Made by a program: the position numbers and the translations under genes
Notes under the pieces: model-generated
Database searches by the model: none
Seen by the model: the letters and a program-made list of their open reading frames with translations, nothing else
Told to the model about the DNA's origin: nothing
In this document: piece by piece, positions 12,605-29,512 of the stretch
Layout of the letters: each line of letters opens with the position of its first letter
Position numbering within the stretch: the stretch's first letter is position 1
Source of the DNA: a virus
DNA length: 37,089 nucleotides
Direction: 5' to 3' (one strand)
Virus record (IMG/VR): IMGVR_UViG_3300044701_000250
Coordinates: 1 to 37,089 of that record

Positions 12605-13606
12605 TCACGCGAGAAGAGACGCAATCTGATTTTTTGCTAAAGACACCAGCCACGCCTCGCGGTCTTTCACTCCGAATGACATGACATACCGCCCATCGTG
12701 CTCCACAAGGCCAGAGCAAAACTCAATTTGCTTGCCCTTGAAGTAAAACTCACGCCCTGCGTGCAGTGGCTCATAATTTGAGCCATAGGTGACAAGGCGG
12801 TGGACGTAATACACCCGGTTGCGCTCCTTGCGGCGCTGGTGCACTACCGAAAGCCACCCGTCACCGTAGCGGATCAACTGCGAACCGCCAGACCAGCGCT
12901 CTAAGTCATGGAAGCCGCCTAGGTACAGACGGCGGCGGTGCGGGGCGATCTCATACGATTCCGATGGGTGATGAGCATAGACCACACAAAGGCGGTCAGA
13001 GTTCACACACGGCGCCCAGTTTTTCTCCATTTCGCGGCCATACGGGCTGTGCAGGAACTCCAGATGCGATACCCGAGCGCCGTCCAACTTGCACAGCGCC
13101 ATCGTCGTGCGTACTCGAGGGCCGTGGTGCAGGGCGCTGCAGGTAAACCACCAAGCGCCTTGCCAGTACAGCAAGCGTCCATCCTCTAGCCCATCACGCG
13201 CTGGCATCCGAGTGTGGCGCACGTCCAGATCGTCCACCCACTTAGGCGTGCCTGGCTTTAGGTCAGCGCCAACCGGCACCAAGTAATTGCGCGTATTGGG
13301 CGCCGAATCGCCGCGGAACCAGATGCCATCCTCATCGCCTAGCTCATAATTGACCGTGCGCACCAAGCACTGCAAAAACCCGTCATCGTCTTTGGTGATT
13401 GACGGGTTACACGGAGAATACTGCTCGCTCGGTATCTCAATGCGCGAGAAGGTGGACGGAGGCAGGTGATCCGATAAGACTACGCCGCCTTCGGCGGCGG
13501 GGAACCCTTCGGCGGCTCGGGCGGCTTCTTTGGCTCCGGCTTCTGCGGCGCTTTCTTGTCTAGGCGCTTCTGAAACTGCAGCACGTCGCTTGGCTTTAAC
13601 ATTCAT
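12605..13606 (-). CDS. Five-bladed beta-propeller protein, GH130/GH43-like
   Basis: 333 residues, ATG at 13606 with a strong GAGGGAG ribosome site. The first 45 residues are an Ala/Glu-rich disordered leader. The rest shows repeated blade signatures: YSPCNPSITKDDDGFLQCLV, GLEDGRLLYWQGAWWF and REMEKNWAPCVNSDRLCVVY. EKNW-P and EDGR motifs recur in carbohydrate-active beta-propellers related to GH130/GH43/GH32 and in sugar-binding domains fused to glycosyltransferases. Catalytic residues cannot be confirmed by eye, so it may bind sugars rather than cut them. It is grouped with a glycosyltransferase and a methyltransferase between terL and portal, which supports a role in glycan modification. Confidence 0.65.
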   Translation of the reverse strand: MNVKAKRRAAVSEAPRQESAAEAGAKEAARAAEGFPAAEGGVVLSDHLPPSTFSRIEIPSEQYSPCNPSITKDDDGFLQCLVRTVNYELGDEDGIWFRGDSAPNTRNYLVPVGADLKPGTPKWVDDLDVRHTRMPARDGLEDGRLLYWQGAWWFTCSALHHGPRVRTTMALCKLDGARVSHLEFLHSPYGREMEKNWAPCVNSDRLCVVYAHHPSESYEIAPHRRRLYLGGFHDLERWSGGSQLIRYGDGWLSVVHQRRKERNRVYYVHRLVTYGSNYEPLHAGREFYFKGKQIEFCSGLVEHDGRYVMSFGVKDREAWLVSLAKNQIASLLA

Positions 13607-13613
13607 CTCTCCC

Positions 13614-14222
13614 TCACATGTGTATGGTTGACGGCATCGGCACCGCTAGATCTTGCGTGGCCTGCGTTACCAGCGGCGGCGTTGCGGTCAACACGCGCAG
13701 GTGAGGCAGGGCGTACCACTCGAGCAGAATATCCACCGGCGTGTTGGCCGGTTTCGTGTACTGCTGCAAGGTGGGTATGGCACGGCGGCGATGCCAAATG
13801 GCTGCCGTGCAAAGCGGGTACTTTGTCTCGCGTAAGTTTTCGGACTCTTTCTTGCTCGGCTTGTCGGCAGTGCAACAGGAGTTCAAATATACCAAGTCGC
13901 ACCACTCTGGAATCTCGGAGCGGATCTGCGCCCAGCGCTCGTTAAAGTTGTCAGGCAGTATGAAGTCATCCTCAAAAATCACAAACTCCTCGTGACCCTC
14001 GCGCCATGCAATCTGCCACGCGATGTGCCACGACAACACCAAGCAAGTCGCGCCTCGAGTCACATAGTAGTCGGTGTGCATCGGAATCTCTGACTTGACC
14101 TGCATGGTCTTGCCAAAGATGCCTTGGATAAAGTCCAACTCAATGCCAGCCTTCGCCGCTTGCTGGCGTGCGTGCTCTGTGCGCTCTGGCGTCTCGGCCA
14201 GAGTAATGCAGTAATACTTCAC
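13614..14222 (-). CDS. Glycosyltransferase family 25-like protein
   Basis: 202 residues from the GTG at 14222, which overlaps the methyltransferase stop as GTGA. A GAGGGG ribosome site lies just upstream, and a longer frame from 14261 would lie inside the previous gene. The start VKYYCITLAETPERTEHARQ matches the GT25 (LPS galactosyltransferase) N-terminal pattern. GATCLVLSWHIAWQIA, then FVIFEDDFIL at residues about 80-90, matches the GT25 conserved S-H and EDD motifs. The acceptor is unknown. Likely it adds a sugar to host LPS or to a virion protein; the linked methyltransferase and propeller suggest a glycan pathway. Confidence 0.82.
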   Translation of the reverse strand: MKYYCITLAETPERTEHARQQAAKAGIELDFIQGIFGKTMQVKSEIPMHTDYYVTRGATCLVLSWHIAWQIAWREGHEEFVIFEDDFILPDNFNERWAQIRSEIPEWCDLVYLNSCCTADKPSKKESENLRETKYPLCTAAIWHRRRAIPTLQQYTKPANTPVDILLEWYALPHLRVLTATPPLVTQATQDLAVPMPSTIHM

Positions 14223-14779
14223 AAGCCCCTCACAAAGAACAACAACGTCGGCCGCCCCCAACTAGACCCCTGCCGCTTGTCCGTCTCTCGAAACATGCAG
14301 GAGGTGATCCAGTCACACTTGAAGCCGTTTTCGCCAAAGCGCTCGATCCAATAATCCGTCGTTTGCTCGTTGACGTGGTGGTGGCCGCCCTGCCCCGGCA
14401 CGGCGTGGCACATCAGCACATACTTGCAGCGGTGCAGCGTCTTAAACCAATTCTGCTCGCACTTCTGGTCTACATGCTCCACAAACTCGGTGCAGATGCC
14501 AAGGTCATACTCGCGCTCTGGATCGTATGCGCCTTTCTCGTAATCGTTCGCCACGAGAATCTCTTTGACCGGACTTTCGGCAAGCGGGATCGGGTGGCCT
14601 TCCACGCCGCGCGCATCAAAGCCTAGGTCGTGCCACCATTTGATGTTCCAGCCCATGCCAGCGCCCACATCAATCACCGACTTGATGCCGTAGTGCAGCG
14701 CAATATATCCCCAAATGTCAGGCATCCACGTCGCGCGGTCGCCCTCTGGAATATAGCCGCCGAGATGGTCGATGCTCAT
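14219..14779 (-). CDS. Class I SAM-dependent methyltransferase
   Basis: 186 residues from the ATG at 14779, which overlaps the TerL stop as ATGA. Motif I (VIDVGAGMGWNIKWW, residues about 34-48) is the SAM-binding glycine loop, followed by an acidic residue after the second strand (ARGVEGHP). A motif IV-like YDLGICTEFVEHVD lies near residues 90-103. A histidine cluster (GQGGHHHVNE) follows, as in small glycan or FkbM-like methyltransferases. The substrate is not readable; coupling to GT25 suggests methylation of a sugar. DNA methylation is less likely because no NPPY/DPPY motif is visible. Confidence 0.8.
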   Translation of the reverse strand: MSIDHLGGYIPEGDRATWMPDIWGYIALHYGIKSVIDVGAGMGWNIKWWHDLGFDARGVEGHPIPLAESPVKEILVANDYEKGAYDPEREYDLGICTEFVEHVDQKCEQNWFKTLHRCKYVLMCHAVPGQGGHHHVNEQTTDYWIERFGENGFKCDWITSCMFRETDKRQGSSWGRPTLLFFVRGL

Positions 14780-16173
14780 ACGATTCCCCTCACCTGCCGC
14801 TTGACCGGCTTGTTCCAAACGTTGGTGTATCCACTGCTCGCCGTGGCGGCGTCCGCTGCAAAGGTCAGCACGAAGGCGTCAGCCACGTCAGGCGACACTA
14901 ACCCTCGCCGCTTCATGTCATCCTTGCTCTCGAGTTTCAACTTGCCGTTGCTCATAAACGAGTAACGCGGCGAAGATAGTTCATTGACCAGTCGCTCGTC
15001 ACGCGGCAGTTTGCAGTCGCGCGCCTCTAACCACGCCTTCGCCTTGCTCCACAACTCAGCGCGCAGGTTGGCGTACTGCGCCTTAAGCGCTGGCGACTCA
15101 CCGACGTTGATGCCGCGGGCGGGAAGTTTCAACTCGCGTAATCGATCGACTACACCTGCGCCAAGGCCGATGCTGTCCACCAAAATCTCGACCGGGCGAT
15201 TCTTGAAGTCGCAGCTCTCCCACTCGTGCAGCACGGCGCCGGTGAGCGACATCAGGTCAAGGTTCTTCCACGTCTTGATCGTCTCTGGCACCACGTTGGC
15301 CTGGCGCTTACAGAGCGCAGAGGAGTCGGTTCCAAAGCGCGCCACGTCCAAGCCCCAGAGGATGGGGGCGCCGGGGTTCTGTACCACGTCACGGTCGATG
15401 GCCGCCTGCGCCAGTTCCAGACTGATCAACGTATCGTCATCGGCCAGCGGGAACTCACCGAGCACGCGTACCCGGAAGGCGTTAGACCCCTCGCCGTACC
15501 GAGCGCGCATTTCTGCAACGTACTCGTCCGACACGCGCGGCGAGTCTAGGCAAGAGACGTGCAAGTTTTTCCACTCGCCGGAGAGGCGGTGGAAAGTGTC
15601 GTAAAAGTACCCCTGGGTGCGGGTGGGGTTGCCGAGTAGCAGCGTGGTGGCATTGTGGCCGGACATACTGCCGCCCGCGGACTCAAAAACCGCCTCCGAT
15701 ACGCCGGGGGCTTCGTCCACCACCAGCAGCACCCACTCTGCGTGGATACCCTGCAGGGCGTCGGGCTGCTCGGCGCGGCTGGTGCGGGCGGAGATGAATG
15801 CCTCTTCCGGGCTGGCTTTTAATTCAATACGGTCGGACTTGATCTCGAGCAAGTCCCCTATGGCGGGGGGTAGCAGCTTGGCCCAGCGGCGGCATTCTCC
15901 GAAAAGCGCGTCGAACAACTGGCTGGCTGTGGGGGCGGTGACGACCACCTTGACGGGTACGCGGGTGAGCATGAACCAGAGCATGGCCCACGAGGCGGCA
16001 GTGGACTTTCCCGTTCCGTGGCCCGATCTAACGGATACCTTGCGCTCATTCGCAGCCAGAAGCCCTAGGAGCTGCTTTTGCCATGGGTCTGGTGTGACCC
16101 CTAGCACCTCTGTCACAAACGCCACAGGATCGCTGTGGTAGCGTTTTACGAAGTCCAGATATGGGTTCTGCAT
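14776..16173 (-). CDS. terL: Terminase large subunit
   Basis: 465 residues, ATG at 16173. This is the ATP-driven DNA packaging motor and nuclease. Walker A is GHGTGKS at residues 51-57. Walker B is LLVVDEAPG at about 149-157, with D153/E154. The NPTRT coupling motif is near 182-186. The RNase H-like nuclease uses D276 (WGLDVARFG), D333 (EILVDSIGLG) and an acidic pair near D429/D432 (SPDVADAF). Length is typical. It is separated from TerS by 275 non-coding bases, unusual for phages where the two often overlap, and is coupled downstream to the methyltransferase. No inteins or frameshifts. Confidence 0.93.
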   Translation of the reverse strand: MQNPYLDFVKRYHSDPVAFVTEVLGVTPDPWQKQLLGLLAANERKVSVRSGHGTGKSTAASWAMLWFMLTRVPVKVVVTAPTASQLFDALFGECRRWAKLLPPAIGDLLEIKSDRIELKASPEEAFISARTSRAEQPDALQGIHAEWVLLVVDEAPGVSEAVFESAGGSMSGHNATTLLLGNPTRTQGYFYDTFHRLSGEWKNLHVSCLDSPRVSDEYVAEMRARYGEGSNAFRVRVLGEFPLADDDTLISLELAQAAIDRDVVQNPGAPILWGLDVARFGTDSSALCKRQANVVPETIKTWKNLDLMSLTGAVLHEWESCDFKNRPVEILVDSIGLGAGVVDRLRELKLPARGINVGESPALKAQYANLRAELWSKAKAWLEARDCKLPRDERLVNELSSPRYSFMSNGKLKLESKDDMKRRGLVSPDVADAFVLTFAADAATASSGYTNVWNKPVKRQVRGIV

Positions 16174-17580: not shown

Positions 17581-17952
17581 TCACCACCCCGCTGTAATTC
17601 TGCCAAGGTCAACCGCCTTGCATAGTTCTGCGATCAATGGCCGCACCCTGCGGCGCAAAGACTTGCTCACTCGGCGTTGCATCCTACGCTTATCAGCATG
17701 ACGCCAATAGTAGGCTTGATGGTACTCCTTGCGAGACTTCTTTGGCTTAGACTGCCAGCCGTCAGGCTGTCTTGCCAAGTCCACGGCGTTGCAGACGATA
17801 GCGACCACGGCGTTCTGTTCTCGAGTCTGGATAGACCATGCCTGCACCTGTTCCTGCGTGTAGCCTTTCCGTCTCGCAGAATTCTTGTGGTAGTTGTGCG
17901 GCTTGCCTCCCGTACTTTGGGTGCCGCAGATCGGGCAGTTACTTCTTGGCAT
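17581..17952 (-). CDS. Hypothetical zinc-finger-like protein (123 aa)
   Basis: 123 residues from the ATG at 17952 (MPRSNCPICGTQSTGG), which overlaps the previous gene by 14 bases; longer versions read into that gene and are unlikely. A CPIC knuckle lies at residues 6-9. Two copies of a motif C(N/K)AVDL(A/G)R with a GW ten or so residues later occur mid-protein and at the C-terminus, separated by a strongly basic Tyr/His/Arg region (EYHQAYYWRHADKRRMQRRV). This looks like an internal duplication of a small DNA- or RNA-binding unit. No HNH motif is complete. Function unknown. Confidence 0.65.
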   Translation of the reverse strand: MPRSNCPICGTQSTGGKPHNYHKNSARRKGYTQEQVQAWSIQTREQNAVVAIVCNAVDLARQPDGWQSKPKKSRKEYHQAYYWRHADKRRMQRRVSKSLRRRVRPLIAELCKAVDLGRITAGW

Positions 17953-18226
17953 ACTTGCTCTTCCAGTCGTGGATCTTGTTGTACCGCTTCTCCTCGCCGT
18001 ACTTAGCCTCCTCGGCAAAGTCCGCCGCCTCTTGAAACGTCTTGAACGTCCCCAGGCTTTTCGGGATCACAGCGCCAGACTTCCCACGCTGCCAGAGCGT
18101 GTAGTCCGTCACCCCGTTGATAGTCTGCTGCCGGATACTGAACCGCCCACAGGCTGTCGTGTTTCCCCAAAAGGGCGCCTCTTGCCAAACCAGCGGCCCG
18201 AGCAAGTTGATCTCGCCCTGGCTCAT
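17939..18226 (-). CDS. Hypothetical protein (95 aa)
   Basis: 95 residues from the ATG at 18226 (MSQGEINLLGPLVWQEAPFW), which overlaps the TGA of the upstream gene as ATGA. It is a mix of beta-like (GRFSIRQQTINGVTDYTLWQ) and helical (TFQEAADFAEEAKYGEEKRY) segments with a basic end. It is reminiscent of small phage proteins with a short strand-turn-strand fold, but not recognised. It is co-transcribed with the DNA-processing genes. Confidence 0.65.
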   Translation of the reverse strand: MSQGEINLLGPLVWQEAPFWGNTTACGRFSIRQQTINGVTDYTLWQRGKSGAVIPKSLGTFKTFQEAADFAEEAKYGEEKRYNKIHDWKSKYAKK

Positions 18227-18426
18227 GGCTCCCACCCCGGACGCTTACCGACCTCGCCGAGTTGGTCAGAGTAGTGGACTAACCTTGCACCGAAGTGCTG
18301 TTGGAAAGTCTTCATCAACTGATAGTCACCTTCGCCCATCTGTTCGAGCATCCTCTTGGCTAGTGGCGTATCTGCAACATGTTGCGCCAGCGCAACACCT
18401 TTAGGCTTACCTGCTTTGTACTTCAT
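18223..18426 (-). CDS. Hypothetical protein (67 aa)
   Basis: 67 residues. The ATG at 18426 overlaps the stop of the 42-residue frame upstream as ATGA. It is mostly helical (VALAQHVADTPLAKRMLEQM, then DYQLMKTFQQHFGARL). No motif recognised. The coupling pattern continues the leftward operon from the PrimPol-helicase gene. Confidence 0.65.
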   Translation of the reverse strand: MKYKAGKPKGVALAQHVADTPLAKRMLEQMGEGDYQLMKTFQQHFGARLVHYSDQLGEVGKRPGWEP

Positions 18427-18551
18427 ACCAACTCGTCATGTCCGTGGGTCATGTCCGAATGTCCGAGTCCTAAAGGACTCTCGGACATTTTCGGACATAC
18501 ATGACCGTCCGAAAATGACTGGATCGGACATTTTCGGACATTTTCGGACAT
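18423..18551 (-). CDS. Short frame over the iteron cluster (42 aa, uncertain)
   Basis: The ATG at 18551 overlaps the PrimPol-helicase stop by one base (TGATG), and the TGA at 18425-18423 overlaps the next ATG. Junctions on both ends look like translational coupling. However, its sequence is generated by the 10-bp repeats lying inside it, and its composition (MSENVRKCPIQ, then several His, Met and Ser) is unremarkable. It may carry ribosomes through the repeat region so that downstream genes are expressed. Protein function is doubtful. Confidence 0.4.
   Translation of the reverse strand: MSENVRKCPIQSFSDGHVCPKMSESPLGLGHSDMTHGHDELV
18439..18550. repeat. Iteron-like cluster: TCGGACATTT repeats in both orientations
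   Basis: TCGGACA occurs at 18481, 18491, 18524, 18534 and 18544; the last three, and the first two, are spaced exactly 10 bp (ATTT or TTT between them). Inverted copies TGTCCG(A/T) start at 18439, 18452 and 18460, and a partial copy GTCCGAAAA starts at 18507. A perfect hairpin GAGTCC-TAAA-GGACTC (18465-18480) lies in the middle. Decameric sites in direct and inverted orientation next to a primase-helicase gene recall the type I iterons of satellite phage P4. Likely a replication origin or an operator array. Confidence 0.7.
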
Positions 18552-20599
18552 CACGGTTCCCCCAGAATAGAGCCACCCACAGTGGCCTTTAGGAAGGGCG
18601 ACAGCATCAACTTTTCGACCGCATCGTGGACAGACTGCCGCGCTACCCCACACTCCCGACCGATCTGGCGCATCTCCTCGACCGTCCAAACGAGTGGCGT
18701 ATCAGACGCCTTCTGACGTTCTCGGAGCGCATACAGGATCGTCCGTTGCGCCTTGCCCTGGGGCGAATGAGCCACCGCTGGCTTGCCCGGTGCGCTCGTC
18801 TCCTTCATCACCAGCGACTTGACCGCCTCGCCATACTTGTCGATGCGCCCGAGCGGAACCTCCACCGCCTCGTATCCCAAGGGCGACAGACTGGCCGTAT
18901 CCTTGAACCGCTCACGGCTCACCGCCACCACCATCGCCTGCGCATCTGGCCGCTCGACGATGTACTCGGCGTCAGGGTTGGCCATCAGCGCGCTGGCGCC
19001 TCGTGGCCGCTTGGCATCGCCGTGCCCGCTGTGCGCCACGAGCAATACCGTGGCCGTGTATCGCTCACGCAGCCCAATGGTGAGTTTAGAGAGATACTCG
19101 GCCACCTCTTGGTTCGAGTTCTCATCAAGGCCAGCACTGAACTTGCTGAAGGTGTCCACGATCACGAGCGCTGGCCGAATGCCTGCCTGGTCGATAGCCT
19201 CCTGCAAGTCCTGCATGTCCTGCTCGGCGTTCAAATTGGCAACAGACTCGAGCGCCAGCACGTTCAACTCGTCGATGCTGCGCCCCTTGCCGTGCTCCTG
19301 CATCCACGCCTCGGCGCGGCGGCCAAGGCCTGCGCCTTCGCCCGACAGGATCACCACCGGGTTGTCGGCCATCGCAATTCGCATCGCCCAGTCGAGTGCA
19401 ATGAACGACTTGAAACTGGCTCTCGGGCCAGCGAGCACGGCCAGCACATTGGCCTCGAGTACATTGTGGATCAGCCACGTCGCCTCTCGCCGCTCCGTAA
19501 CAATCTCGGCCACGGAACGCAGCACGAGCTTGCGCCGTGTGCTGCTCGGCGCGCTGATCGTCGCATTCATAACGGCTGGCGTTACGATTTCGCGGATCAT
19601 CCCGCGCGCCTCTGGCACATCGTCATAGTCCATCGGCGGCTCCTCCCGCTTTGGCGCACCGAGCCGCACCGCCTCTGGCACATTCACCCAGCCCTGCGCC
19701 TTGGCCGCATTAAAGAGGCTGCCGAGCGTCACGCCGCGGCCACGGTCAAGGTGGAACGACTGCCAGCGATACTCCATGTCTGCGCGCCCGGCGTAATTGT
19801 CCGGCAGTTCGCCAGTGATACCACCGCTTGCCCACGCATCCCACAGGTCTAAGCCGTCATCGGCGCCGCCACTGGCGTAGTGCAGCGCCATGCCTACCAT
19901 CAGCCACGAGTCGTATGGCGCCGGGTCGATGTACGAGAGTGCCTCAGTGATGCGCGGCAGGTCGCGCTGGAAGTCGCCACTGGTGCCAGGCTTCGGCGGT
20001 AGTTTCGCCGCAAGTTCTGCGGGCAATTCCAAGTCCATTCGCCGCTCGTCAATCAGCCCTGCTGGTAACGACTTGATGTCGCCCATGGGGCCGCTCTGCC
20101 CGTAGTGCAGCGGCCACCAGATGATGTACCCGCCCTCGGCGCGGATGTCGAGGCCGTCGCGGCGCACCTTGCCGAGCGTGACGGAAACGCCGCCGCGGAT
20201 CTTGACACCCGCTGGCGTCGAAAAGATGTAGTGCCTGCCGCCGCTACCGCCGCCGGTCTGGTGTACCCGAGTGGTTAGAAGAATGCTTTGATTTTCGCCC
20301 AGCCAGTCTTGAGCGCTTGACCCAGCCTTGCTGGTATCGAAGTCGATGACGGCAAGCCCGGTGCGGCTGCCGGTTGGAACCCCAACGAGTGCGTCAGGGT
20401 GACTGGCCCAGAATCGACGAATCTGCGCCTCGTCTTGCGTGGCGTCTTTGAATCCGTTTCTGGTAAGCGGGCTTTTGGCTTTGAGCGTGCGCCCTTCTTG
20501 ATCTGTTTCATCTTTCCTCCTGCATGGAAATACGGGGTACTTCTTCGCCAGCTCGAGGATACGCTCGACTGGCACGATAGCGGTGAGTTCTGGTTTCAT
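18551..20599 (-). CDS. PrimPol-helicase (bifunctional primase/polymerase plus RepA-like helicase)
   Basis: 682 residues. The ATG at 20599 overlaps the regulator stop as ATGA. Domain order: N-terminal primase-polymerase of the archaeo-eukaryotic type (residues about 10-200), with AVIDFDTS at 83-90 holding the metal-binding acidic pair, GRHYIFS at 121-127, and GLDIRAEGGYIIWWP at 149-163. A PriCT-2-like domain follows (about 215-305; YDSWLMVGMALH, LWDAWASGG). A RecA-fold hexameric helicase comes next, with Walker A GPRASFKS at 391-398, Walker B LVIVDTFSKF at 478-487, VAHSGH at 521-526 and RGASAL at 533-538. A C-terminal winged-helix-like segment ends it. It likely unwinds and primes at the phage origin. 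No separate DNA polymerase is present, so the host replisome probably elongates. Confidence 0.88.
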   Translation of the reverse strand: MKPELTAIVPVERILELAKKYPVFPCRRKDETDQEGRTLKAKSPLTRNGFKDATQDEAQIRRFWASHPDALVGVPTGSRTGLAVIDFDTSKAGSSAQDWLGENQSILLTTRVHQTGGGSGGRHYIFSTPAGVKIRGGVSVTLGKVRRDGLDIRAEGGYIIWWPLHYGQSGPMGDIKSLPAGLIDERRMDLELPAELAAKLPPKPGTSGDFQRDLPRITEALSYIDPAPYDSWLMVGMALHYASGGADDGLDLWDAWASGGITGELPDNYAGRADMEYRWQSFHLDRGRGVTLGSLFNAAKAQGWVNVPEAVRLGAPKREEPPMDYDDVPEARGMIREIVTPAVMNATISAPSSTRRKLVLRSVAEIVTERREATWLIHNVLEANVLAVLAGPRASFKSFIALDWAMRIAMADNPVVILSGEGAGLGRRAEAWMQEHGKGRSIDELNVLALESVANLNAEQDMQDLQEAIDQAGIRPALVIVDTFSKFSAGLDENSNQEVAEYLSKLTIGLRERYTATVLLVAHSGHGDAKRPRGASALMANPDAEYIVERPDAQAMVVAVSRERFKDTASLSPLGYEAVEVPLGRIDKYGEAVKSLVMKETSAPGKPAVAHSPQGKAQRTILYALRERQKASDTPLVWTVEEMRQIGRECGVARQSVHDAVEKLMLSPFLKATVGGSILGEP

Positions 20600-20805
20600 G
20601 GGTACAAATCCGGTCGCAGCTTCTGCCGAGACACCCCGCTTGCGACCTCGAGCGGAATGGCCTTTAGGGCAGGCACCCTACCCCTTTTTACCCAATACTG
20701 CACCGCCTGCTGGCTGACGCCTAGCTTCTTGGCCGTGGCCGTTTGTCCGCCCAGTATGTCCACGGCGTGGAGCAGGGCTATTGATTCGCTGGTTGGCTTT
20801 TTCAT
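20596..20805 (-). CDS. YdaS/Cro-like helix-turn-helix regulator
   Basis: 69 residues from the ATG at 20805. A TTG three codons upstream would overlap the -10 hexamer and is unlikely. The HTH is GGQTATAKKLGVSQQAVQYW, followed by VKRGRVPALKAIPLEVASGV and a KLRPDLYP end. This matches the YdaS/Cro family, which has a proline-containing wing and a PDLYP C-terminus. It is the first leftward gene and is transcribed from a promoter only a few bases upstream. Probably it controls both divergent promoters, as Cro does, or acts as a replication-gene regulator. Confidence 0.83.
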   Translation of the reverse strand: MKKPTSESIALLHAVDILGGQTATAKKLGVSQQAVQYWVKRGRVPALKAIPLEVASGVSRQKLRPDLYP

Positions 20806-20813
20806 AACCGACA

Positions 20814-20842
20814 AACCTACCTTGTGCCTGTTTTGGGGTCAA
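20814..20842 (-). promoter_or_regulatory. Leftward sigma70-type promoter (regulator/PrimPol)
   Basis: Minus strand: -35 TTGACC (20842-20837), 17-base spacer, -10 TAGGTT (20819-20814). The expected start of transcription is about 20806-20808, only one to three bases from the regulator ATG at 20805, so the mRNA would be leaderless or nearly so, as for lambda cI from PRM. Confidence 0.55.
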
Positions 20843-20881
20843 GCGAATTATTTTCACAAATAGGGCTTGTGTTCTGTTTTG
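20821..20881. promoter_or_regulatory. Direct-repeat operators in the divergent switch
   Basis: CTTGTGCCTGTTTTG (20821-20835) and CTTGTGTTCTGTTTTG (20866-20881) are the same site with one inserted base, 45 bp apart. The first fills the spacer of the leftward promoter; the second covers the -35 and spacer of the rightward promoter. One protein bound at both could silence both directions. The HTH regulator is the obvious candidate ligand. Confidence 0.55.
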
Positions 20882-20895
20882 CCGCTTGCTACATT
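20867..20895 (+). promoter_or_regulatory. Rightward early promoter
   Basis: -35 TTGTGT (20867-20872), 17-base spacer, -10 TACATT (20890-20895). Predicted start near 20902, at the foot of a hairpin. It drives the plus-strand early operon from 20944. Confidence 0.5.
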
Positions 20896-20904
20896 CTTAT
20901 CTCC

Positions 20905-20919
20905 CCGGCAGGGTGCCGG
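20905..20919 (+). promoter_or_regulatory. 5'-UTR hairpin of the early transcript
   Basis: CCGGCA-GGG-TGCCGG is a perfect 6-bp stem at the predicted 5' end of the rightward mRNA, 13 bases before the AAAGGAG ribosome site. A stem here would protect the transcript from 5'-dependent decay. Confidence 0.5.
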
Positions 20920-20943
20920 ACGAAGCGATCAAAGGAGACTAAA

Positions 20944-21225
20944 ATGTTTGACAAGTACGCAGAGCACCTTCAAGACAGCGTCATCGACAACAGCCGATTT
21001 GACGGTTTCGATCGTGGCGACCTTGGAAACGACGAGCCAGAAAACATTGAGATCGTTATTGGCCGTATGCGCTGCTGGCACGGCAAGGTTGAGGTTGTGG
21101 AAGTCAGCACTCTCACAGGCTCCGATTATTATGTTCGCGTCAACGATCGCATGGTTACCGATTTCATGGAGCGCGATCGCGCAATTCGAGTCGGTCGCTG
21201 GTGGGTAAACGGAGCGGCGGCCTAA
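20944..21225 (+). CDS. First early protein (93 aa, hypothetical)
   Basis: 93 residues, ATG at 20944 with a strong AAAGGAG ribosome site seven bases upstream; a longer frame would start within the promoter. It is acidic in the first half (DKYAEHLQDSVIDNSRFDGF), followed by a beta-rich part (EIVIGRMRCWHGKVEVVEV). No known motif. First position in a rightward operon of an infecting phage often holds host-takeover proteins, so an anti-host role is possible but unproven. Confidence 0.72.
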   Translation: MFDKYAEHLQDSVIDNSRFDGFDRGDLGNDEPENIEIVIGRMRCWHGKVEVVEVSTLTGSDYYVRVNDRMVTDFMERDRAIRVGRWWVNGAAA

Positions 21226-21245
21226 TGGCCGCCAAGGAGTCAACC

Positions 21246-21449
21246 ATGCCAACCCTAAAAGACCTAGAAAACGCCCTTCGCAAACACGACTGGTTCCACG
21301 AATACAGCGACGATCACCGCGTGTGGAAGCGTGGCGTCGAAGAGTGGGAAGCCATCCGCGCCATGTACATGGAACTGCGCGACGCCGGACAAGGTGACGC
21401 TGCAGAGACAATGATCAAAGACATGACGAAGGAGATGACCCGTGTTTGA
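21246..21449 (+). CDS. Small early protein (67 aa, hypothetical)
   Basis: 67 residues from the ATG at 21246, with AAGGAG eight bases upstream. It is helical and charged with several Trp residues (DLENALRKHDWFHEYSDDHR, VEEWEAIRAMYMELRDAGQG). No recognised family. It overlaps the next start by eight bases. Confidence 0.68.
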   Translation: MPTLKDLENALRKHDWFHEYSDDHRVWKRGVEEWEAIRAMYMELRDAGQGDAAETMIKDMTKEMTRV

Positions 21450-21576
21450 TTACTTCATGCTCACGCCCGCAGAGATTGCAGAGGCTTGGTTCGTCGTGAA
21501 GGCTTGCGGTGTCATCGCAGTGCTGTCCGTCATCACCTGCATTGGCGAGCGCATCATTGTGCGCATGGGTAAGTGA
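21442..21576 (+). CDS. Small membrane protein (44 aa)
   Basis: GTG start at 21442 with AAGGAG at 21428-21433, inside the end of the previous gene. One transmembrane helix is predicted (WFVVKACGVIAVLSVITCIG), with an acidic N-terminal segment (LTPAEIAEA) and a basic C-terminal tail (RMGK). An early small membrane protein could act in superinfection exclusion or membrane modification; function unknown. Confidence 0.6.
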   Translation: MFDYFMLTPAEIAEAWFVVKACGVIAVLSVITCIGERIIVRMGK

Positions 21577-21689
21577 TGCGCTGGCTTATCAACATCATCC
21601 GCCGGCTGCAACGCAACCGGCAACATATTTGGCGGCAGGTTCCCCCGCCAAACTGGCGCTCCAGTCGGGGCGGCAGAGATTTCTGGTGA
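21576..21689 (+). CDS. Very small Arg/Trp-rich protein (37 aa)
   Basis: The ATG at 21576 overlaps the previous stop by one base (TGATG). It starts MRWLINIIRRLQRNRQHIWR and ends in a Pro/Arg/Gly tail with a terminal Trp. It is amphipathic and strongly basic. The coupling junction supports translation, but no homology is known to me. A membrane-active or nucleic-acid-binding peptide is possible. Confidence 0.45.
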   Translation: MRWLINIIRRLQRNRQHIWRQVPPPNWRSSRGGRDFW

Positions 21690-21724
21690 ACCGTTATTAA
21701 AGGAAAACGAAGGAGACTTTATTT

Positions 21725-22375
21725 ATGAGCATTTTCGTATCAGCATCAGCCGGTGGTAACTATCCCGAGCGCAAGCCGCTCGAGGCCGGCGCCTATGCCG
21801 CAGTTTGTGACATGGTTGTAGACCTTGGCGTGCAGGCCTCGCCCGGCGGTCAGTTTGCGCCCAAGCGCACGCTGCTGCTGCGCTTCCAGATTCCAAGCGA
21901 GCGTGTTGAGATCACCAAGGATGGCGAAACCAAGAGTCTGCCTGCCGTGATCAGCCGCACCGTTGGCCTAAGCCTTAACGAGAAGGCGACTCTGCGCCAG
22001 TTGCTGCAATCGTGGCGTGGTCGTGCCTTCACCCCGGACGAACTCAAGAAGTTTGACCTGGTGAACGTGTTAGGAAAGCCCGCTTTTATTAACGTAACGC
22101 ACAGCGTTAAAGGCGAAAAGACCTACGCCAACCTGACCAGCATCATGCCGCTGCCGAAGGGCATGACGCCACCGGCGCTCGAGGGCGATGCGCTTTGGTA
22201 CACACCAGACGCACCGAATCCCGACACGTTCGACAAGTTGCCGACATGGGTGCAGGACAAGATCGCAGCACGCATTGTGGAAGCGCCAGTGCTTCCGAAG
22301 GCGCCCGCTGCGGCCAAGCCTGCCGCTGCGCCGGTAGTTGAAGAAGCCTTCAAAGACGACGATCTGAGCTTCTGA
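21725..22375 (+). CDS. SSB-like replication protein
   Basis: 216 residues, ATG at 21725 after a GAAGGAG site. The folded part (residues about 1-165) is beta-rich and resembles phage single-strand-binding or replication accessory proteins that precede RecB-like nucleases. After an Ala/Pro-rich linker (residues about 185-205) it ends in FKDDDLSF, an acidic tip closely resembling the DDDIPF C-terminus by which bacterial SSB recruits partners. Likely it coats ssDNA and recruits host or phage replication proteins. It is coupled to the exonuclease gene (TGATG). Confidence 0.72.
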   Translation: MSIFVSASAGGNYPERKPLEAGAYAAVCDMVVDLGVQASPGGQFAPKRTLLLRFQIPSERVEITKDGETKSLPAVISRTVGLSLNEKATLRQLLQSWRGRAFTPDELKKFDLVNVLGKPAFINVTHSVKGEKTYANLTSIMPLPKGMTPPALEGDALWYTPDAPNPDTFDKLPTWVQDKIAARIVEAPVLPKAPAAAKPAAAPVVEEAFKDDDLSF

Positions 22376-23082
22376 TGGCTACCGCACGATATGGCTACAA
22401 ACTGGCGGACGGCACGAAAGTGCCGTCTGTCACCACTATTCTAAAAATCAAAGACCCCGGTGCGTTGTTGAATTGGGCATACAAGACTGGCCGCGCACAT
22501 GGCGTGCTGGAAGGATCGGGCAAGGATGCCCCGGCTGGCTTGTATGACGGCAACGATGCGCTGCCCATCGGGACGTGCGTCCACGAGATGTGCGAGGTCT
22601 TTGTAAAAGGTGGCGACCCGATGCGCCACCTTGAGGAGACGATGGAGAAGGTGAAGACGCTAGACCCTGCTGCGTTCCGTGCGCAGGTGGTCAGCGCCTA
22701 CAGTGCCTTTGAGTTTTGGTGCAAGGGCACGCAGCTCGAGATCATCGACTGCGAGGTGCCGGTGTTGTCCGAGACGCACCGCTACGGCGGCACGCTCGAC
22801 TTCATTGGCAAGCTCAACGGCAAGTTAGTGCTGGGCGACTTCAAGACTTCGGGCGGCGTCTACCCTGAGTACCTGATCCAGTTGGTAGCGTATGCCAAGG
22901 CTTACGAGGAGTGCACCGGCAACAAGATCAACGGCGGGTACCACTTGCTGCGCTTCAGCAAGGAGAATGGTGACTTCGGCCACCACTTCTACCCGTCGCT
23001 GGATGACGATGCTTGGCCAGCGTTCTTGAACTTGCGTTCGCTGTATGACTTAAACGAGAAACTCAAGAAGAGGGCATCATGA
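22375..23082 (+). CDS. PD-(D/E)XK exonuclease (RecB/Cas4-like)
   Basis: 235 residues, ATG at 22375 overlapping the previous stop. Motifs: GTCVHEMCEVF with H70/E71, GGTLDFIG with D142, VLGDFKTS with D155 and K157, and YLIQLVAYAKAY at about 166-177 (the QxxxY motif). This is the standard order for RecB-family single-strand-directed nucleases used by phages in recombination. No iron-sulphur cysteine cluster of the Cas4 type is present. It probably works with the SSB-like protein upstream in recombination or concatemer formation. Confidence 0.85.
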   Translation: MATARYGYKLADGTKVPSVTTILKIKDPGALLNWAYKTGRAHGVLEGSGKDAPAGLYDGNDALPIGTCVHEMCEVFVKGGDPMRHLEETMEKVKTLDPAAFRAQVVSAYSAFEFWCKGTQLEIIDCEVPVLSETHRYGGTLDFIGKLNGKLVLGDFKTSGGVYPEYLIQLVAYAKAYEECTGNKINGGYHLLRFSKENGDFGHHFYPSLDDDAWPAFLNLRSLYDLNEKLKKRAS

Positions 23083-23222
23083 AAAAAGAAGATAGTTTTC
23101 TTGACTGGGTATCATACGGCGGCGCCATCATCGCCGTGATGTGCCTAGCATTGATCGGTGCCGCCGTTGGCGGTGCCATCTTTGGCGTGTTCGTTAAGAC
23201 CATGATGTGGGTGGCGCGATGA
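23079..23222 (+). CDS. Small membrane protein (47 aa)
   Basis: The ATG at 23079 overlaps the nuclease stop as ATGA, and the stop overlaps the next ATG the same way. An acidic N-terminus (MKKEDSFLDWVSYGG) precedes a long hydrophobic helix (AIIAVMCLALIGAAVGGAIF, with GxxxG-type spacing). It lacks a charged tail typical of a pinholin. Function unknown; it is produced early, so it is more likely membrane-modifying than lytic. Confidence 0.65.
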   Translation: MKKEDSFLDWVSYGGAIIAVMCLALIGAAVGGAIFGVFVKTMMWVAR

Positions 23223-23641
23223 GTTACTCCGACTTTCATGCTGATGACTTTGGGGCGATTCTTCGCGGAGAACAAGACGAGGATGTGGTCAACAATCCGA
23301 GCCACTACAAACTCGAGATTGACGGCCAGCAGTTTGAGGCTATCGACGTGATCAAGGCGGTAGTGGGCGACGAGGGATTCGTCGCCTACTGCCACGCCTC
23401 TGCGCTGAAGTACCTTTGCCGCGCTGGTCGTAAGGCTGGCAACGCAACGGCGCAGGACTTCCGCAAGGCGGCGTGGTTCTTGACCGCGGGCGCGCACAAG
23501 TTGGATGACATGATCGACGATCAGATGCTGGATGACTGCCGCCAGCGGATCACGCGCGAGCAGGTTATCGACATCTGGAACCAAGACCGGCTGCAGGACG
23601 CGCTGGACATTGGCCGCAAGATCAACGAGGGTGAATACTGA
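23219..23641 (+). CDS. DUF3310 protein (T7 gp1.7-related)
   Basis: 140 residues from the ATG at 23219. VNNPSHYKLEIDGQQFEAID (residues about 24-43), YLCRAGRKAGN (about 65-75) and DFRKAAWFLTAG (about 80-91) are the signature of DUF3310. This family includes the T7 gp1.7 nucleotide kinase that acts on dTMP/dGMP. A nucleotide metabolism role fits the early replication operon. The C-terminal 45 residues are acidic and helical. Confidence 0.8.
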   Translation: MSYSDFHADDFGAILRGEQDEDVVNNPSHYKLEIDGQQFEAIDVIKAVVGDEGFVAYCHASALKYLCRAGRKAGNATAQDFRKAAWFLTAGAHKLDDMIDDQMLDDCRQRITREQVIDIWNQDRLQDALDIGRKINEGEY

Positions 23642-23871
23642 TGCAAAGGGCAGCGTCACGATATAACCCGACGCTGACGTTTGAGCAGTACCAGGTGCTG
23701 CTCGAGCGTAAGCGCCTAGCGCACGCGGATGGCGAGCGATTGAAGTACAAAGACTTGATGCGCGACTGGGGCGTGAAGCAATACGCGCTGGCCACGGCGG
23801 TGCAGCGTGGCATAAAGCAATACGATTACAAAATATGGAAGGCATCAAAAAATGACAATCGACAACTTTAG
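23641..23871 (+). CDS. Hypothetical HTH-like protein (76 aa)
   Basis: 76 residues. The ATG at 23641 overlaps the previous stop (TGATG). It is basic and helical; LKYKDLMRDWGVKQYALATA followed by VQRGIKQYDY looks like a helix-turn-helix with a CRISPR-unrelated, phage-type loop. Possibly a DNA-binding regulator. The last 20 bases overlap the next gene. Confidence 0.62.
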   Translation: MQRAASRYNPTLTFEQYQVLLERKRLAHADGERLKYKDLMRDWGVKQYALATAVQRGIKQYDYKIWKASKNDNRQL

Positions 23872-24118
23872 CGACGGCGGATCATGGCGCCGTGAGATGC
23901 TGGCAAGGCCACTGAGCGTGAGCCAGTTGCGTGAAATTATCAGCGAGTTGGAACATGCGCTAACTGTTGAGCGCAGCCGCACGTCTGCGATGGTGAGCGA
24001 GTTGGCCGCGGCGACTGCTCGAGAGATGGAGCTACGCGCTGCGCTTGAGCACGCTAGCCGTATTTTCGGCGCAGGTAGTCCATCCGAAGCGGCATCAGGT
24101 CATAGTCGCCCTTCTTGA
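23852..24118 (+). CDS. Coiled-coil protein (88 aa), overlaps a convergent gene
   Basis: ATG at 23852 with GGAAGG upstream. Residues about 20-66 form a predicted coiled coil (LSVSQLREIISELEHALTVE, then an AAATAREMELRAALEHA segment). The last 20 codons (GAGSPSEAASGHSRPS end) lie on the antisense of the metallophosphoesterase 3' end, a 65-base tail-to-tail overlap. The C-terminus is therefore low-information, and the gene may have been extended by loss of an earlier stop. Confidence 0.6.
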   Translation: MTIDNFSDGGSWRREMLARPLSVSQLREIISELEHALTVERSRTSAMVSELAAATAREMELRAALEHASRIFGAGSPSEAASGHSRPS

Positions 24119-26158: not shown

Positions 26159-28081
26159 TTACTTCCTTTCTTCTTGCGAAAGCAACCCCGGCAGTCTTCC
26201 ACCAAATTGGACAGACTGCGCTTTTTTGGCTTCCCGCGCTGCCGTCTCTCGTAGCAGTCGCTGGTCTTCCAAATCAAGACGATCAAGTATCTGCATCTGC
26301 TGCTGCGGGTTCATTTCCGTCAGCATACGCGCCATGTCTGCTCGAGCGTTCGGAGTAAGTCCACGCAGGCGACCGCCAGCAAGATTTAGCAGCGTCAAGA
26401 ACCGAGACGCTGCATTCCCCATGGCGAATTGAGCGACCTGTTCGGTGCGCGCCAACTGGTCAACACCGGCGCCAGCGGCTGCAGAAGTGCGTGCAGTTCT
26501 GGAGCCAATATTCGGGTTGATGTTTCTTGCAAAGTCTTGAAGCTGTCGCTCTTGCTTAATCCGCATGGCAGCCTGCGCTGCGGCCTCTGGCGTTGTGGCG
26601 ACAAAATCAAGCAGGTCACGATTTTGCTTGCTACCTGTCAGCATACGCGCCATGCCGATGTCATCCATTGTGGCAAGGCGGTTGTACAGCGCGTCACGCG
26701 CAGTCTCTTTAACAACCGCCTGCTGCTCTGGCGACAGTGTGCGCAAGGCAACACGGCGGTCAGATTCAGACATGTTGATAAAGCGCTGCCCAAGCTCTGA
26801 CAGTTTTATCAACTCAGAGTCTTCTGCAAATCGCGCTCGCGCCGCGGCGTATTCTGGAACTAGCGCCTTGACTCGAGTATCAAGTTGGTCAAATAGACCC
26901 TTGATGCCAGAAGCATTCACGTCACCCGATCGAAACGCTTGGTCTTTCTTGGCGCGAACTGCGCGAAGAAGATAGTCAAGCGCGGCAACTGATGGGTATG
27001 CGTTTTGAATTAGGTCGCCGTTCTTGTCTACCAAGTCAGGCAACTTCATTTTTTCTTGTCGCTGCGCGTTTGTCTGAGCCTTTTTGTAAAGCGCGCGCAG
27101 CAACGGATCGCTAACAATGATATTGACGATTTCATCGTCTTGAACAATGCCAACGGCTCTAGCCTGCCCGTACAGCGTGCTGGCATTTTCGTTGCGCATC
27201 TTCTCAAACTTTTTGAGCACGTCTTGCGTAAACTGGCGATTTCCACCAGTCATTTCATTGACAATACCCATGACGCGCGGGCCAGATCCGCTCAATATTT
27301 CTTGAGATACGTCTCGAGTGATATCACCGGCTTGCCCGCCACCAATAGCGGCACGCTCTGCCGCCATCTGGCCGGACTGCCCCATCATCATTCCAAGCGG
27401 GCTAATCTCGTCAGGCCGCCCAGTTAAGATCTGCTGACGCAGTTGGTCACCAGTCACGCCTGCCTCGCGCATAGCGCCGAGGACTTCCTGCGAAGCTACG
27501 CGCGGTTCATTTGGATTAAACGCGCGCCCAAGCACGGAGCGCGCTCCGCGCAAGTAGTCCATGCCAGCGCCAAACGCCGGGCCAGTCACTGCGCCAATGC
27601 CGCCACCCGTTACCGCCCCTGCTATCCGATCCCCAGGCTGCGCCTCTAAGCCGCCCTGGATGGCGCCAGTTGTGGCACCCATACCAGCCTGCGATAGAAG
27701 GCGACCGCCGACACTGGTAACTGCCGATGCCTTCCCAAACGGATTAGGCGACAGCAGCGCTCCGCTTAATTCTGACACGCCGTATGTGATGGGGTTGGCG
27801 CGTTGCATCGCCTCACGCTCTTGGCGCTGCTGCTCCATGCTCTGGCCGTAAGGCATCATTCCAGCGCCAGATTCAAGCGCTGCGATTGCCTCATCTGCGC
27901 CGCCATACGTCACACCCTGCCCAAAGGCACGGATAGCCGTCTGCAACATTCCTGGCGGCTGATTTTGCGCCTGTGCTGCACGCGCAGATTTTCGCTGGCG
28001 AACCTTCTCAATAACTTCCGGGCTCGTGCCTTCTGGAAACTCGGCAACAGTGCCGTCTGGCATCGGGACTTTAATGGCCAT
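26159..28081 (-). CDS. Internal virion/injection protein (640 aa)
   Basis: 640 residues from the ATG at 28081; a longer frame would enter the upstream gene. PDGTVAEFPEGTSPEVIEKV near the start is a short motif common at N-termini of phage ejection proteins. Residues about 85-180 are Gly/Ala-rich with several hydrophobic stretches (GATTGAIQGGLEAQPGDRIA, VTGGGIGAVTGPAFGAG), which could insert into the host membrane. The remainder is helical and Gln/Arg/Ala-rich. No transglycosylase motif is seen. It probably leaves the capsid to form part of the DNA-delivery channel. Confidence 0.72.
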   Translation of the reverse strand: MAIKVPMPDGTVAEFPEGTSPEVIEKVRQRKSARAAQAQNQPPGMLQTAIRAFGQGVTYGGADEAIAALESGAGMMPYGQSMEQQRQEREAMQRANPITYGVSELSGALLSPNPFGKASAVTSVGGRLLSQAGMGATTGAIQGGLEAQPGDRIAGAVTGGGIGAVTGPAFGAGMDYLRGARSVLGRAFNPNEPRVASQEVLGAMREAGVTGDQLRQQILTGRPDEISPLGMMMGQSGQMAAERAAIGGGQAGDITRDVSQEILSGSGPRVMGIVNEMTGGNRQFTQDVLKKFEKMRNENASTLYGQARAVGIVQDDEIVNIIVSDPLLRALYKKAQTNAQRQEKMKLPDLVDKNGDLIQNAYPSVAALDYLLRAVRAKKDQAFRSGDVNASGIKGLFDQLDTRVKALVPEYAAARARFAEDSELIKLSELGQRFINMSESDRRVALRTLSPEQQAVVKETARDALYNRLATMDDIGMARMLTGSKQNRDLLDFVATTPEAAAQAAMRIKQERQLQDFARNINPNIGSRTARTSAAAGAGVDQLARTEQVAQFAMGNAASRFLTLLNLAGGRLRGLTPNARADMARMLTEMNPQQQMQILDRLDLEDQRLLRETAAREAKKAQSVQFGGRLPGLLSQEERK

Positions 28082-28088
28082 CTTTATC

Positions 28089-29228
28089 TCACTTGATAGG
28101 GTTGCCGTTTCGATCGTAGCGCTCAACTCGACCGCCACGCTCGATGATGGATCGAATCATCTGCGCCTGCACATTCACAGGCAGCATCGGATTCGGGAAC
28201 TGCCGAATACCAACCTCCACGTCTGTTCCAGTAATCGGGCCAGTCGGATTCTGCAGCATTGCAATACCAGAGCCGCCAGTTGTAGCAGGCCCCATAAGAT
28301 CTGCGTTTGATGCCTCAACGATGGTTTTCGCAAAGTCACCAATGACTGGAAGACCGGATACGGTTCGAGCAACGCCGCCCTGTAGGAATCTGCCGCCCCT
28401 GTTTCTAATCAGAGTCTCAATTTCTGCAGGCGTTTTCTTTTTCAACTCTTCAACGCCGACTCCTGTCAAGTTTGATGCATAAGTGTAAGCAGCATCTTGC
28501 GTCATGTTGACGCCAGACTGCTGACGCGCGTTCAGCGTTTCGCCTTCTCCGCCCTTGCCAGTGCCCGGCATATACGGGGCGCCAACAGGTGTTCCAGACG
28601 CCTGCCCAGGAGCAATCCATGTGTCTTGCACCATGCCATTCGCAAGGCGCACTTGGCGCAGTGTCGGCTGCGGGCCTTCCTTTGGTTGGCGCGCCTCTTT
28701 TTGCACGATAAATGTATCTCTTGGGTTTCTTTTGTTTACTGCCACTAAGCCAACCCCAGAAACATTTTGAACCGTATAGTCTTCCGGCTTCATTCTTTCA
28801 TCAGCCATAGACTTCAGCATAGGGTTAGCCTGCAGCGCAGCGGCACCAGCGGGTGACGCCATCAGCGCCTGCAGGTTCATGCCAGACATGGGGCGCACTT
28901 CTTCAAGTTGCGTCTGCTCACCCACGTCTGCGCCTCGAGCGCCCATTCGACCAGCAATAGCGGCCTGTGCTTGGTTCACATCCTGAGTGGCGCGGCGCAT
29001 TGTGGCTTCTTGCTCGGCCTTCTTGCGCAACTCTTGTCGCGCTCCACGGTAGGACTCAATGCCGCCCAGCAATCCGGTGCCGGAGAGCATTCCGCGTACT
29101 GCGGACAGCCCAGCCTCTCGCTCTAGTCGCTTGCGCTCCTCTTCGGAAAGACCGGCCAACTCCTCCTCACCGAGAAGTCCGCCAATCATGCGAGAGTAAA
29201 GACTGCGCTTGTTTTTAGATTCGGCCAT
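28089..29228 (-). CDS. Internal virion/injection protein (379 aa)
   Basis: 379 residues, ATG at 29228. The helical charged N-terminus (NKRSLYSRMIGGLLGEEELA, then EEERKRLEREAGL) is followed by Gln/Ala-rich helices (ATQDVNQAQAAIAG). A central beta-like segment (YTVQNVSGVGLVAVNKRNPR) and a disordered middle come next. The C-terminal part has a hydrophobic patch (VSGLPVIGDFAKTIV). Order and composition match podophage ejection proteins next to the larger one downstream. The precise family is not recognised. Confidence 0.68.
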   Translation of the reverse strand: MAESKNKRSLYSRMIGGLLGEEELAGLSEEERKRLEREAGLSAVRGMLSGTGLLGGIESYRGARQELRKKAEQEATMRRATQDVNQAQAAIAGRMGARGADVGEQTQLEEVRPMSGMNLQALMASPAGAAALQANPMLKSMADERMKPEDYTVQNVSGVGLVAVNKRNPRDTFIVQKEARQPKEGPQPTLRQVRLANGMVQDTWIAPGQASGTPVGAPYMPGTGKGGEGETLNARQQSGVNMTQDAAYTYASNLTGVGVEELKKKTPAEIETLIRNRGGRFLQGGVARTVSGLPVIGDFAKTIVEASNADLMGPATTGGSGIAMLQNPTGPITGTDVEVGIRQFPNPMLPVNVQAQMIRSIIERGGRVERYDRNGNPIK

Positions 29229-29236
29229 GTTTCACC

Positions 29237-29512
29237 TCAATCCCCGAGTAAGCCGCCGCGAACCTTGCGACCGCCGTACATGCTGTAAATGCCACCGTAA
29301 TACTTATTTGGGTCATAAATTGGGGCGCCACCTTTTGGGTTTCTTGGCGCATCCAAAAATGATTTTAGAGAGTCTTCATCATCTTCGCTCCCAGACGGGC
29401 CACGTCCAAGATTTTTCAGTACATTCTTTGGAGAGAATGCTTTGATCCCGCCCTCGCTTTCACCTCCACCAGCAAGCGACTTGAGGATGGCCTGAAGAAT
29501 AAACTCTTCCAT
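29237..29512 (-). CDS. Small virion-module protein (91 aa)
   Basis: The ATG at 29512 overlaps the previous stop (TGATG). A short amphipathic N-terminal helix (MEEFILQAILKSLAGG) is followed by a Gly/Ser/Asp-rich disordered region and a Tyr/Gly end (YDPNKYYGGIYSMYGGRKVR). No known family. It lies between the Gln-rich S74 protein and the injection proteins, so it probably belongs to the virion or tail assembly. Confidence 0.65.
   Translation of the reverse strand: MEEFILQAILKSLAGGGESEGGIKAFSPKNVLKNLGRGPSGSEDDEDSLKSFLDAPRNPKGGAPIYDPNKYYGGIYSMYGGRKVRGGLLGD

Follow-up and report, generated by a model that had tools for sequence, protein, structure and literature searches.

Behind the stop codon of a phage primase-helicase gene, and ahead of the start codon of the gene that follows, lies a dense cluster of short repeats. 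Is this element the origin of replication of the phage, and if so, which protein reads it? The question was raised by an initial annotation of a virus record of 37,089 bp, which had likened the repeats to those of phage P4 and considered a self-recognised origin. We analysed the whole record (the window), which is possibly incomplete, and compared the locus with its relatives.

Results

Structure of the repeat cluster

Positions 18439-18550 contain nine copies of the word TCGGACA, seven of them exact and two with one mismatch; five copies point in one direction and four in the other (Table 1). The nine-copy cluster around a perfect hairpin, as originally described, is thus confirmed, and so is its start at the stop codon of the primase-helicase gene, whose reading frame abuts the first copy. 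The 10-bp phasing noted in the same place applies within the direct pair and within the triplet only: the gap between these two groups is 33 bp, and the two exact inverted copies are spaced 8 bp. In three relatives (L050-L052) the direct copies, too, have a spacing of 8 bp, so that strict helical phasing is not generally kept. Folded as a single strand, the whole element reaches -35.5 kcal/mol (z -7.3). Its base composition is 50% AT; since it is not AT-rich, there is no classical unwinding element.

Chance yields nothing comparable to this cluster. Counting non-overlapping copies of a 7-mer per 112 bp, we found 7 in the cluster and at most 4 elsewhere in the record, and when the record was simulated 120 times by a first-order Markov model, the highest count was 3 in 116 runs and 4 in the other four. 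Four further exact copies of TCGGACA exist in the record, all of them isolated. P4 has two repeat clusters (ori and crr), and a second cluster had therefore been suggested as a check; a search with the close-pair pattern matched only the site at 18439-18550, so that the 37,089-bp record holds a single cluster.

Table 1. Features of the repeat element and of the adjacent genes (coordinates refer to the 37,089-bp record)
Feature	Position	Strand	Basis
Whole element: repeat cluster and central hairpin, from the helicase stop codon to the start of the following gene	18427-18550	-	Sequence, 79/79 related loci, fold
Three exact TCGGACA (starts 18524, 18534, 18544), spaced 10 bp, abutting the helicase stop; TGTCCGA in helicase sense	18524-18550	+	Exact word search
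Two exact TCGGACA (18481, 18491), spaced 10 bp, on one flank of the hairpin	18481-18497	+	Exact word search
Two exact inverted copies (18452, 18460), spaced 8 bp, on the opposite flank of the hairpin	18452-18466	-	Exact word search
Outer inverted copy, one mismatch (ACGGACA)	18439-18445	-	One-mismatch search
Inner inverted copy, one mismatch (TCGGACG)	18506-18512	-	One-mismatch search
Central hairpin GAGTCC-TAAA-GGACTC (core CTTTAG in helicase sense)	18465-18480	.	Sequence; stem kept in relatives with changing sequence
Primase-helicase: Prim-Pol (PF09250), PriCT_2 (PF08707), RepA-like AAA_25 (PF13481), C-terminal winged helix	18551-20599	-	Pfam, structure model
Winged-helix domain, codons 601-682, the segment tracking the repeat word	18554-18799	-	Class comparison, trees; model
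Predicted recognition helix, codons 654-665	18605-18640	-	Model, column scoring
YdaS/Cro-like HTH gene, upstream neighbour of the helicase gene, disfavoured as word reader	20596-20814	-	Pfam

The helicase gene encodes a protein of 682 residues. Its motor domain belongs to AAA_25, which we take to be a RepA-like family of helicases with the RecA fold; the record names of relatives ("regulatory protein repA", "helicase RepA family protein") agree with this family. Neither D5_N/SF3 nor Toprim gave a Pfam match in the protein (E<=0.01), and the search for a PDB chain of similar sequence returned none at E<=0.01. Residues 590-682 were modelled as a winged helix with pLDDT values of 82-89 across model residues 31-90; the model of the full-length protein was poor (pLDDT 52). 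Foldseek matched the C-terminal model to winged-helix DNA-binding domains (probability up to 0.99, E-values of 0.013 or worse), and the rows of VIA-align include the winged helices of MCM8, ORC and Cdc6 with Z-scores of 6.6-8.2, which are middling by the standards of that tool.

Conservation of the layout and exchange of the word

Relatives were collected by a scan of IMG/VR (75 loci) and by further scans, among them an exact 17-mer scan of viral contigs; a scan for distant relatives with alignment A3 returned mostly the same helicase family again. From 197 loci with a match to the helicase C-terminus, 196 had a stop codon, and 79 were left after dropping duplicates and loci with less than 130 bp downstream. 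In all 79 non-redundant loci the element is found behind the helicase stop codon, with the same layout and at the same place; in L019, L231 and L238 it was assigned by eye and not by script. Relatives with the same helicase that lack repeats, which had been named as evidence against a self-recognised origin, did not occur among them.

What varies is the word itself. TGTCCGA was found in 42 loci, GTACGAA in 18, GGTCAAA in 14 and additionally in two far relatives of about 33% identity (L071, L072), TGTCCGG in two and TGTTGGA in one. Five words thus occur within one protein family, whose members are 55-99% identical to the protein of our record. Because the direct and inverted copies share one word in each locus, several sites must have changed together. 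The hairpin was detected by script in 78 of the 79 loci: its pairing is kept and its arms vary (GAGTCC, GTGTCC, GAGACC, GTGTGC, AAACCC, TCTCCC, AACCCC, CCCCCC and others). The median arm score is 13, compared to 5 in 352 control windows, of which 0.3% reach 13; for this scoring the script chose a different hairpin in four loci (L055, L093, L094, L037) and none in a fifth (L173); the central hairpins of all five can be seen by eye.

A further case is given by natural chimeras (L064/L359, jointly G012, as well as L065 and L340), which combine the PrimPol half of the family with a different RepA-like helicase half. L064/G012, L065 and L340 carry yet another word, CCCCAGTT, at the same place; the contig of L340 contains only its first bases.

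Two side observations arose from these scans. At about locus position 2073 of L019, the helicase stop codon is displaced and the reading frame continues into the repeat element. The 17-mer scan also returned contigs (L080, L082, L084, L097, L126, L151 and similar ones) that contain TGTCCGAAAATGTCCGA followed by a third copy in a quite different context; AGGAATCGTATTCGGTC recurs near these sites, which are perhaps part of an integrase or att region. The TGTCCGAAAATGTCCGA contigs are probably unrelated to the element of the helicase family.

The protein segment that follows the word

In order to find out which protein part varies together with the word, we compared identities within and between word classes; the far relatives L071 and L072 were left out of the helicase identity profile, the segment comparison and the trees. 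For 69 full-length helicases, the gap between within-class and between-class identity was -0.01 to 0.09 for residues 1-600, 0.27 for residues 601-640 and 0.31 for residues 641-680. When 679 columns were scored singly, 20 showed a class gap of at least 0.5; every one of these falls at positions 601-682, and eight are in the predicted recognition helix. Residues 655 and 659 jointly separate all five word classes: they are Q/D with TGTCCGA, Q/K or Q/R with GGTCAAA, T/A or T/T with GTACGAA, H/D with TGTTGGA and S/E with TGTCCGG.

The same comparison was made for the whole neighbourhood. Over 77 loci, the gap of the winged helix was 0.275, whereas those of eight other segments (YdaS, the helicase body and six downstream genes; 58-77 loci each) ranged from 0.003 to 0.080. 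In quick maximum-likelihood trees, the winged helix needs four word changes, the minimum for five words. The other trees require 10 (motor), 12 (67-aa downstream gene), 15 (TerS, a set holding four word classes), 19 (RusA), 22 (PrimPol) and 24 (YdaS) changes. Nine near-complete contigs (five with TGTCCGA, two with GGTCAAA, two with GTACGAA) allowed us to score 35 of the 45 other reading frames, ten having too few homologues. None of these 35 tracked the word: their gaps lay between -0.10 and +0.10, compared to +0.27 for the winged helix, and the largest values, which are small and come from few contigs, belong to 26159-28138 (+0.10, n=5) and 29237-29512 (+0.08, n=7).

By this comparison, no protein segment other than the winged helix (residues 601-682) was found to vary in step with the repeat word. 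Since only this part of the helicase follows the word and none of the 35 other reading frames does, the helicase is very probably the reader of its own origin; the self-recognition considered at the outset is in this way supported by inference. The winged-helix codons adjoin the element, and co-inheritance by linkage is therefore part of the signal. Linkage alone does not easily explain the tracking, because the gene on the other flank, which encodes 67 residues and starts about 15-30 bp from the element, is shuffled with respect to the word (12 changes). On the basis of segment gaps and trees, the neighbouring small genes were rejected as word readers.

Genomic context and other readings of the element

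Downstream of the helicase gene follow the element, small genes, a RusA-like gene, a gene for an NrdR-like zinc ribbon, TerS (about 1.5 kb from the element) and TerL. Between TerL and a portal-like gene, an inspection by eye indicated three reading frames (12605-14818) that resemble carbohydrate- or methyl-transfer enzymes. The GC skew, for which a switch at 18.5 kb had been proposed as a check, is positive on both sides of the element and no switch is seen there. Clearly negative values are confined to a stretch about 2-6 kb upstream of the element (in helicase sense); as this stretch coincides with genes on the other strand, the skew neither supports nor excludes an origin. A short block of plus-strand genes (21725-24118; phrog_862-like and exonuclease-like), where the skew reverses, stands out in a genome with mostly minus-strand genes. 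A scan of positions 17900-21800 found no sigma-70-like promoter and two terminator-like sites, which are located upstream on the other strand and are fewer than in shuffled sequences; within the element, neither a promoter-like nor a terminator-like site was found.

Two of the neighbouring proteins might be readers of the site. The YdaS/Cro-type HTH regulator is encoded directly upstream of the helicase, the element sits ahead of a gene, and operators typically hold inverted as well as direct repeats; the cluster could accordingly be an operator that controls the downstream genes. However, the identity of YdaS proteins between word classes reaches 100% (median of the best cross-class values 98%, gap 0.003), the YdaS tree requires 24 word changes and the region lacks a sigma-70-like promoter, which makes an operator very improbable. 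As identical YdaS proteins accompany different words, binding by an unrelated regulator, also raised by the initial annotation, is disfavoured. TerS comes into question because of the synteny helicase - element - small genes - TerS - TerL: the element would then serve for packaging (as cos or pac) and be cut at the palindrome, and iterated sites beside a palindrome would suit a cos. Yet the site does not follow TerS, which is up to 100% identical across words (median of the best cross-class values 98.8%, gap 0.008), shows 15 word changes on its tree and has a gap of -0.06 in the nine contigs. We give a packaging site as little credit as an operator.

The strongly folding strand, with a hairpin directly behind the stop codon, would also be compatible with an intrinsic terminator or an RNA element that ends the helicase gene. 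This is hardly credible, as no terminator-like site was reported there, a T-run is missing, and an RNA hairpin leaves unexplained why the words, inverted and direct alike, change in concert with a domain that binds DNA. More weight has to be given to the idea that the winged helix does read the element, though for autoregulation, copy-number control or replication arrest and not for initiation, since the evidence for the reader is silent on the effect of binding and the genes on either side of the element apparently form one operon. On the other hand, a replicative PrimPol-helicase with a single adjacent cognate cluster is the usual arrangement of initiator and origin, the element lacks promoter-like and terminator-like sites, the record has no other cluster able to serve as origin, and the hairpin is kept as a structure. 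A role other than initiation is for these reasons unlikely.

Related elements behind other AAA_25 helicases

Repeats around a hairpin behind the stop codon were recognised by eye for distant AAA_25 genes on contigs of bacterial and, in one case, viral origin (L239, L244, L253, L074). Behind the gene of a further relative (L241) there is no repeat cluster, and the contig of L263 ends too early behind the helicase stop codon. Of eight cultured phages, four possess the element, namely Alteromonas PB15, Idiomarinaceae 1N2-2, Salicola CGphi29 and Roseobacter CRP-406; it was not found in Pseudoalteromonas C7, Vibrio H188, Caulobacter GB2A and ctyzp037. GB2A and ctyzp037 have AAA_25 without a cluster (two of the six AAA_25 cultured phages examined). 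Since all four element-bearing phages encode Toprim_3 and AAA_25 and no Prim-Pol, the design accompanies the RepA-like motor and the winged helix, not a particular type of primase. A search for PriCT_2 in 289 genomes of one class gave six with a match.

After dropping loci with less than 190 bp of flank, those with a missing C-terminus and duplicates, 25 loci of the Toprim-AAA_25 lineage were left. Within 200 bp behind the stop codon, one 6-mer occurs at least four times in all 25 and at least five times in 22, compared to 3.5% and 0.7% of 453 control windows, respectively. The lineage has 19 different top 6-mers, a few of which overlap as parts of one word. A hairpin with an A/T loop and a stem of at least 5 is present in 18 of the 25 loci versus 6.6% of the controls. 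Elements of both lineages whose words are unrelated share one of three recurring hairpin cores, CTTTAG, CTTAAG or CTATAG (L377-L401), which hints at a sequence-specific role of the core itself, possibly as a primer start.

Discussion

Taken together, the element is likely to be the replication origin of the phage, recognised by the phage's own PrimPol-helicase. The comparative evidence as to which domain would read the site is unusually clean. Against an origin speak the missing GC-skew switch, the AT content of 50%, and the lack of a cluster in GB2A, ctyzp037 and L241.

A probable mechanism can be outlined as follows. The C-terminal winged helix would bind the short repeats in both orientations, and the bound copies would gather helicase subunits or rings on both flanks of the palindrome. 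The RepA-like motor might then open, melt, extrude or load at the hairpin, the fused Prim-Pol could prime the exposed strand near the A/T loop (CTTTAG), and host enzymes would extend the primer. The comparative data support two parts of this scheme, namely the protein part that follows the word and the hairpin, whose palindromy is kept while its sequence changes.

As a wider interpretation, which we offer tentatively and consider nearly as likely as its opposite, these loci may represent a widespread class of phage origins. An exchangeable cassette, consisting of the winged-helix codons and the element of about 110 bp, would constitute a private "origin word"; the two lineages sampled would comprise about twenty words around a constant hairpin core (CTTTAG, CTTAAG, CTATAG), word switching would create replication-incompatibility types, and residues 655 and 659 would form the core of a readable protein-DNA code. 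If this is true, co-infecting phages, satellites or plasmids would be barred by the word from each other's initiator. For a large and unstudied set of phages with RepA-type helicases of the PrimPol or Toprim type, the comparison itself provides a candidate origin together with the domain that probably reads it. The natural word swaps are ready-made specificity experiments, with many more words in the second lineage, and permit direct tests of the initiator's choice of origin, of words as incompatibility groups, and of the hairpin as the loading or priming point of RepA-type helicases.

Comparison with known systems

The initial annotation regarded the element as P4-like and as not described for this phage type. 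With respect to the latter, neither this element nor the co-variation of word and winged helix was found in the open-licence PMC literature, within which the statement holds; origins with a stem-loop or with iterons downstream of helicase genes have, however, been described for pRN1, SaPIs and SCCmec. The origin repeats of P4 are decamers, and its alpha protein has an SF3 motor. Alpha unites primase, helicase and winged helix in one protein and binds repeats at the origin (PMC4234260). The likeness to P4 thus extends to the predicted C-terminal winged helix in the same protein; it ends at the AAA_25 motor, at the Prim-Pol in place of the Toprim primase and at the single cluster with its hairpin. 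Membership of the phage in the P4 group is not supported, and SaPI Rep and pRN1 are closer precedents than P4.

In pRN1 of Sulfolobus, a repressor gene (orf56) is followed by a PrimPol-helicase gene (orf904) with a C-terminal winged helix and then by a stem-loop of about 100 bp behind the gene, which was shown to be needed as origin; among its relatives the fold is kept and the sequence is not, and the source calls the recognition motifs "not yet identified" (PMC4234260). Our element likewise combines a position behind a PrimPol-helicase gene with a fold that persists despite varying arms. It differs in that pRN1 has an SF3 helicase and no iterons, whereas here an AAA_25 helicase is accompanied by clear iterons, whose word varies along with the winged helix. 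A stem-loop origin has also been proposed for Bordetella phage BIP-1, which is nearly identical to BPP-1 (PMC4234260). BPP-1 has no such repeats behind the gene, and its bbp29 matches D5_N (same Pfam library, E<=0.001).

SaPI Rep, a self-loading helicase, uses its C-terminal domain to recognise short iterons that directly follow its own gene, and for Cch2 of SCCmec self-recognised downstream iterons were tested in vitro (PMC7581432 for both). Iterons directly downstream of the helicase gene are present here in 79/79 loci; for the C-terminal domain, the sequence comparison shows a co-variation with the word, and binding of the iterons by this domain would be the counterpart to SaPI Rep. In contrast to Rep and Cch2, which are DUF927 or D5-type helicases with another primase arrangement, the motor is a RepA-like AAA_25, and the element places copies of either orientation around a central hairpin. 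At oriV of RSF1010 (IncQ), RepC iterons and the RepA helicase are combined with the primase RepB', which acts at ssi hairpins by single-strand recognition (PMC4234260). The same ingredients, namely iterons and hairpins, a RepA helicase and a primase, are packed here into one fused protein and an element of about 110 bp, instead of three separate proteins (RepA, RepB', RepC). For PrimQH primases, some of which occur with RepA-type helicases, origin recognition by a C-terminal winged helix has been proposed, and the available portion of that proposal names no site (PMC5862659). Their combination of AEP, PriCT, P-loop ATPase and C-terminal winged helix is completely present in our protein, for which we can name a candidate site and its co-variation with the domain that would read it.
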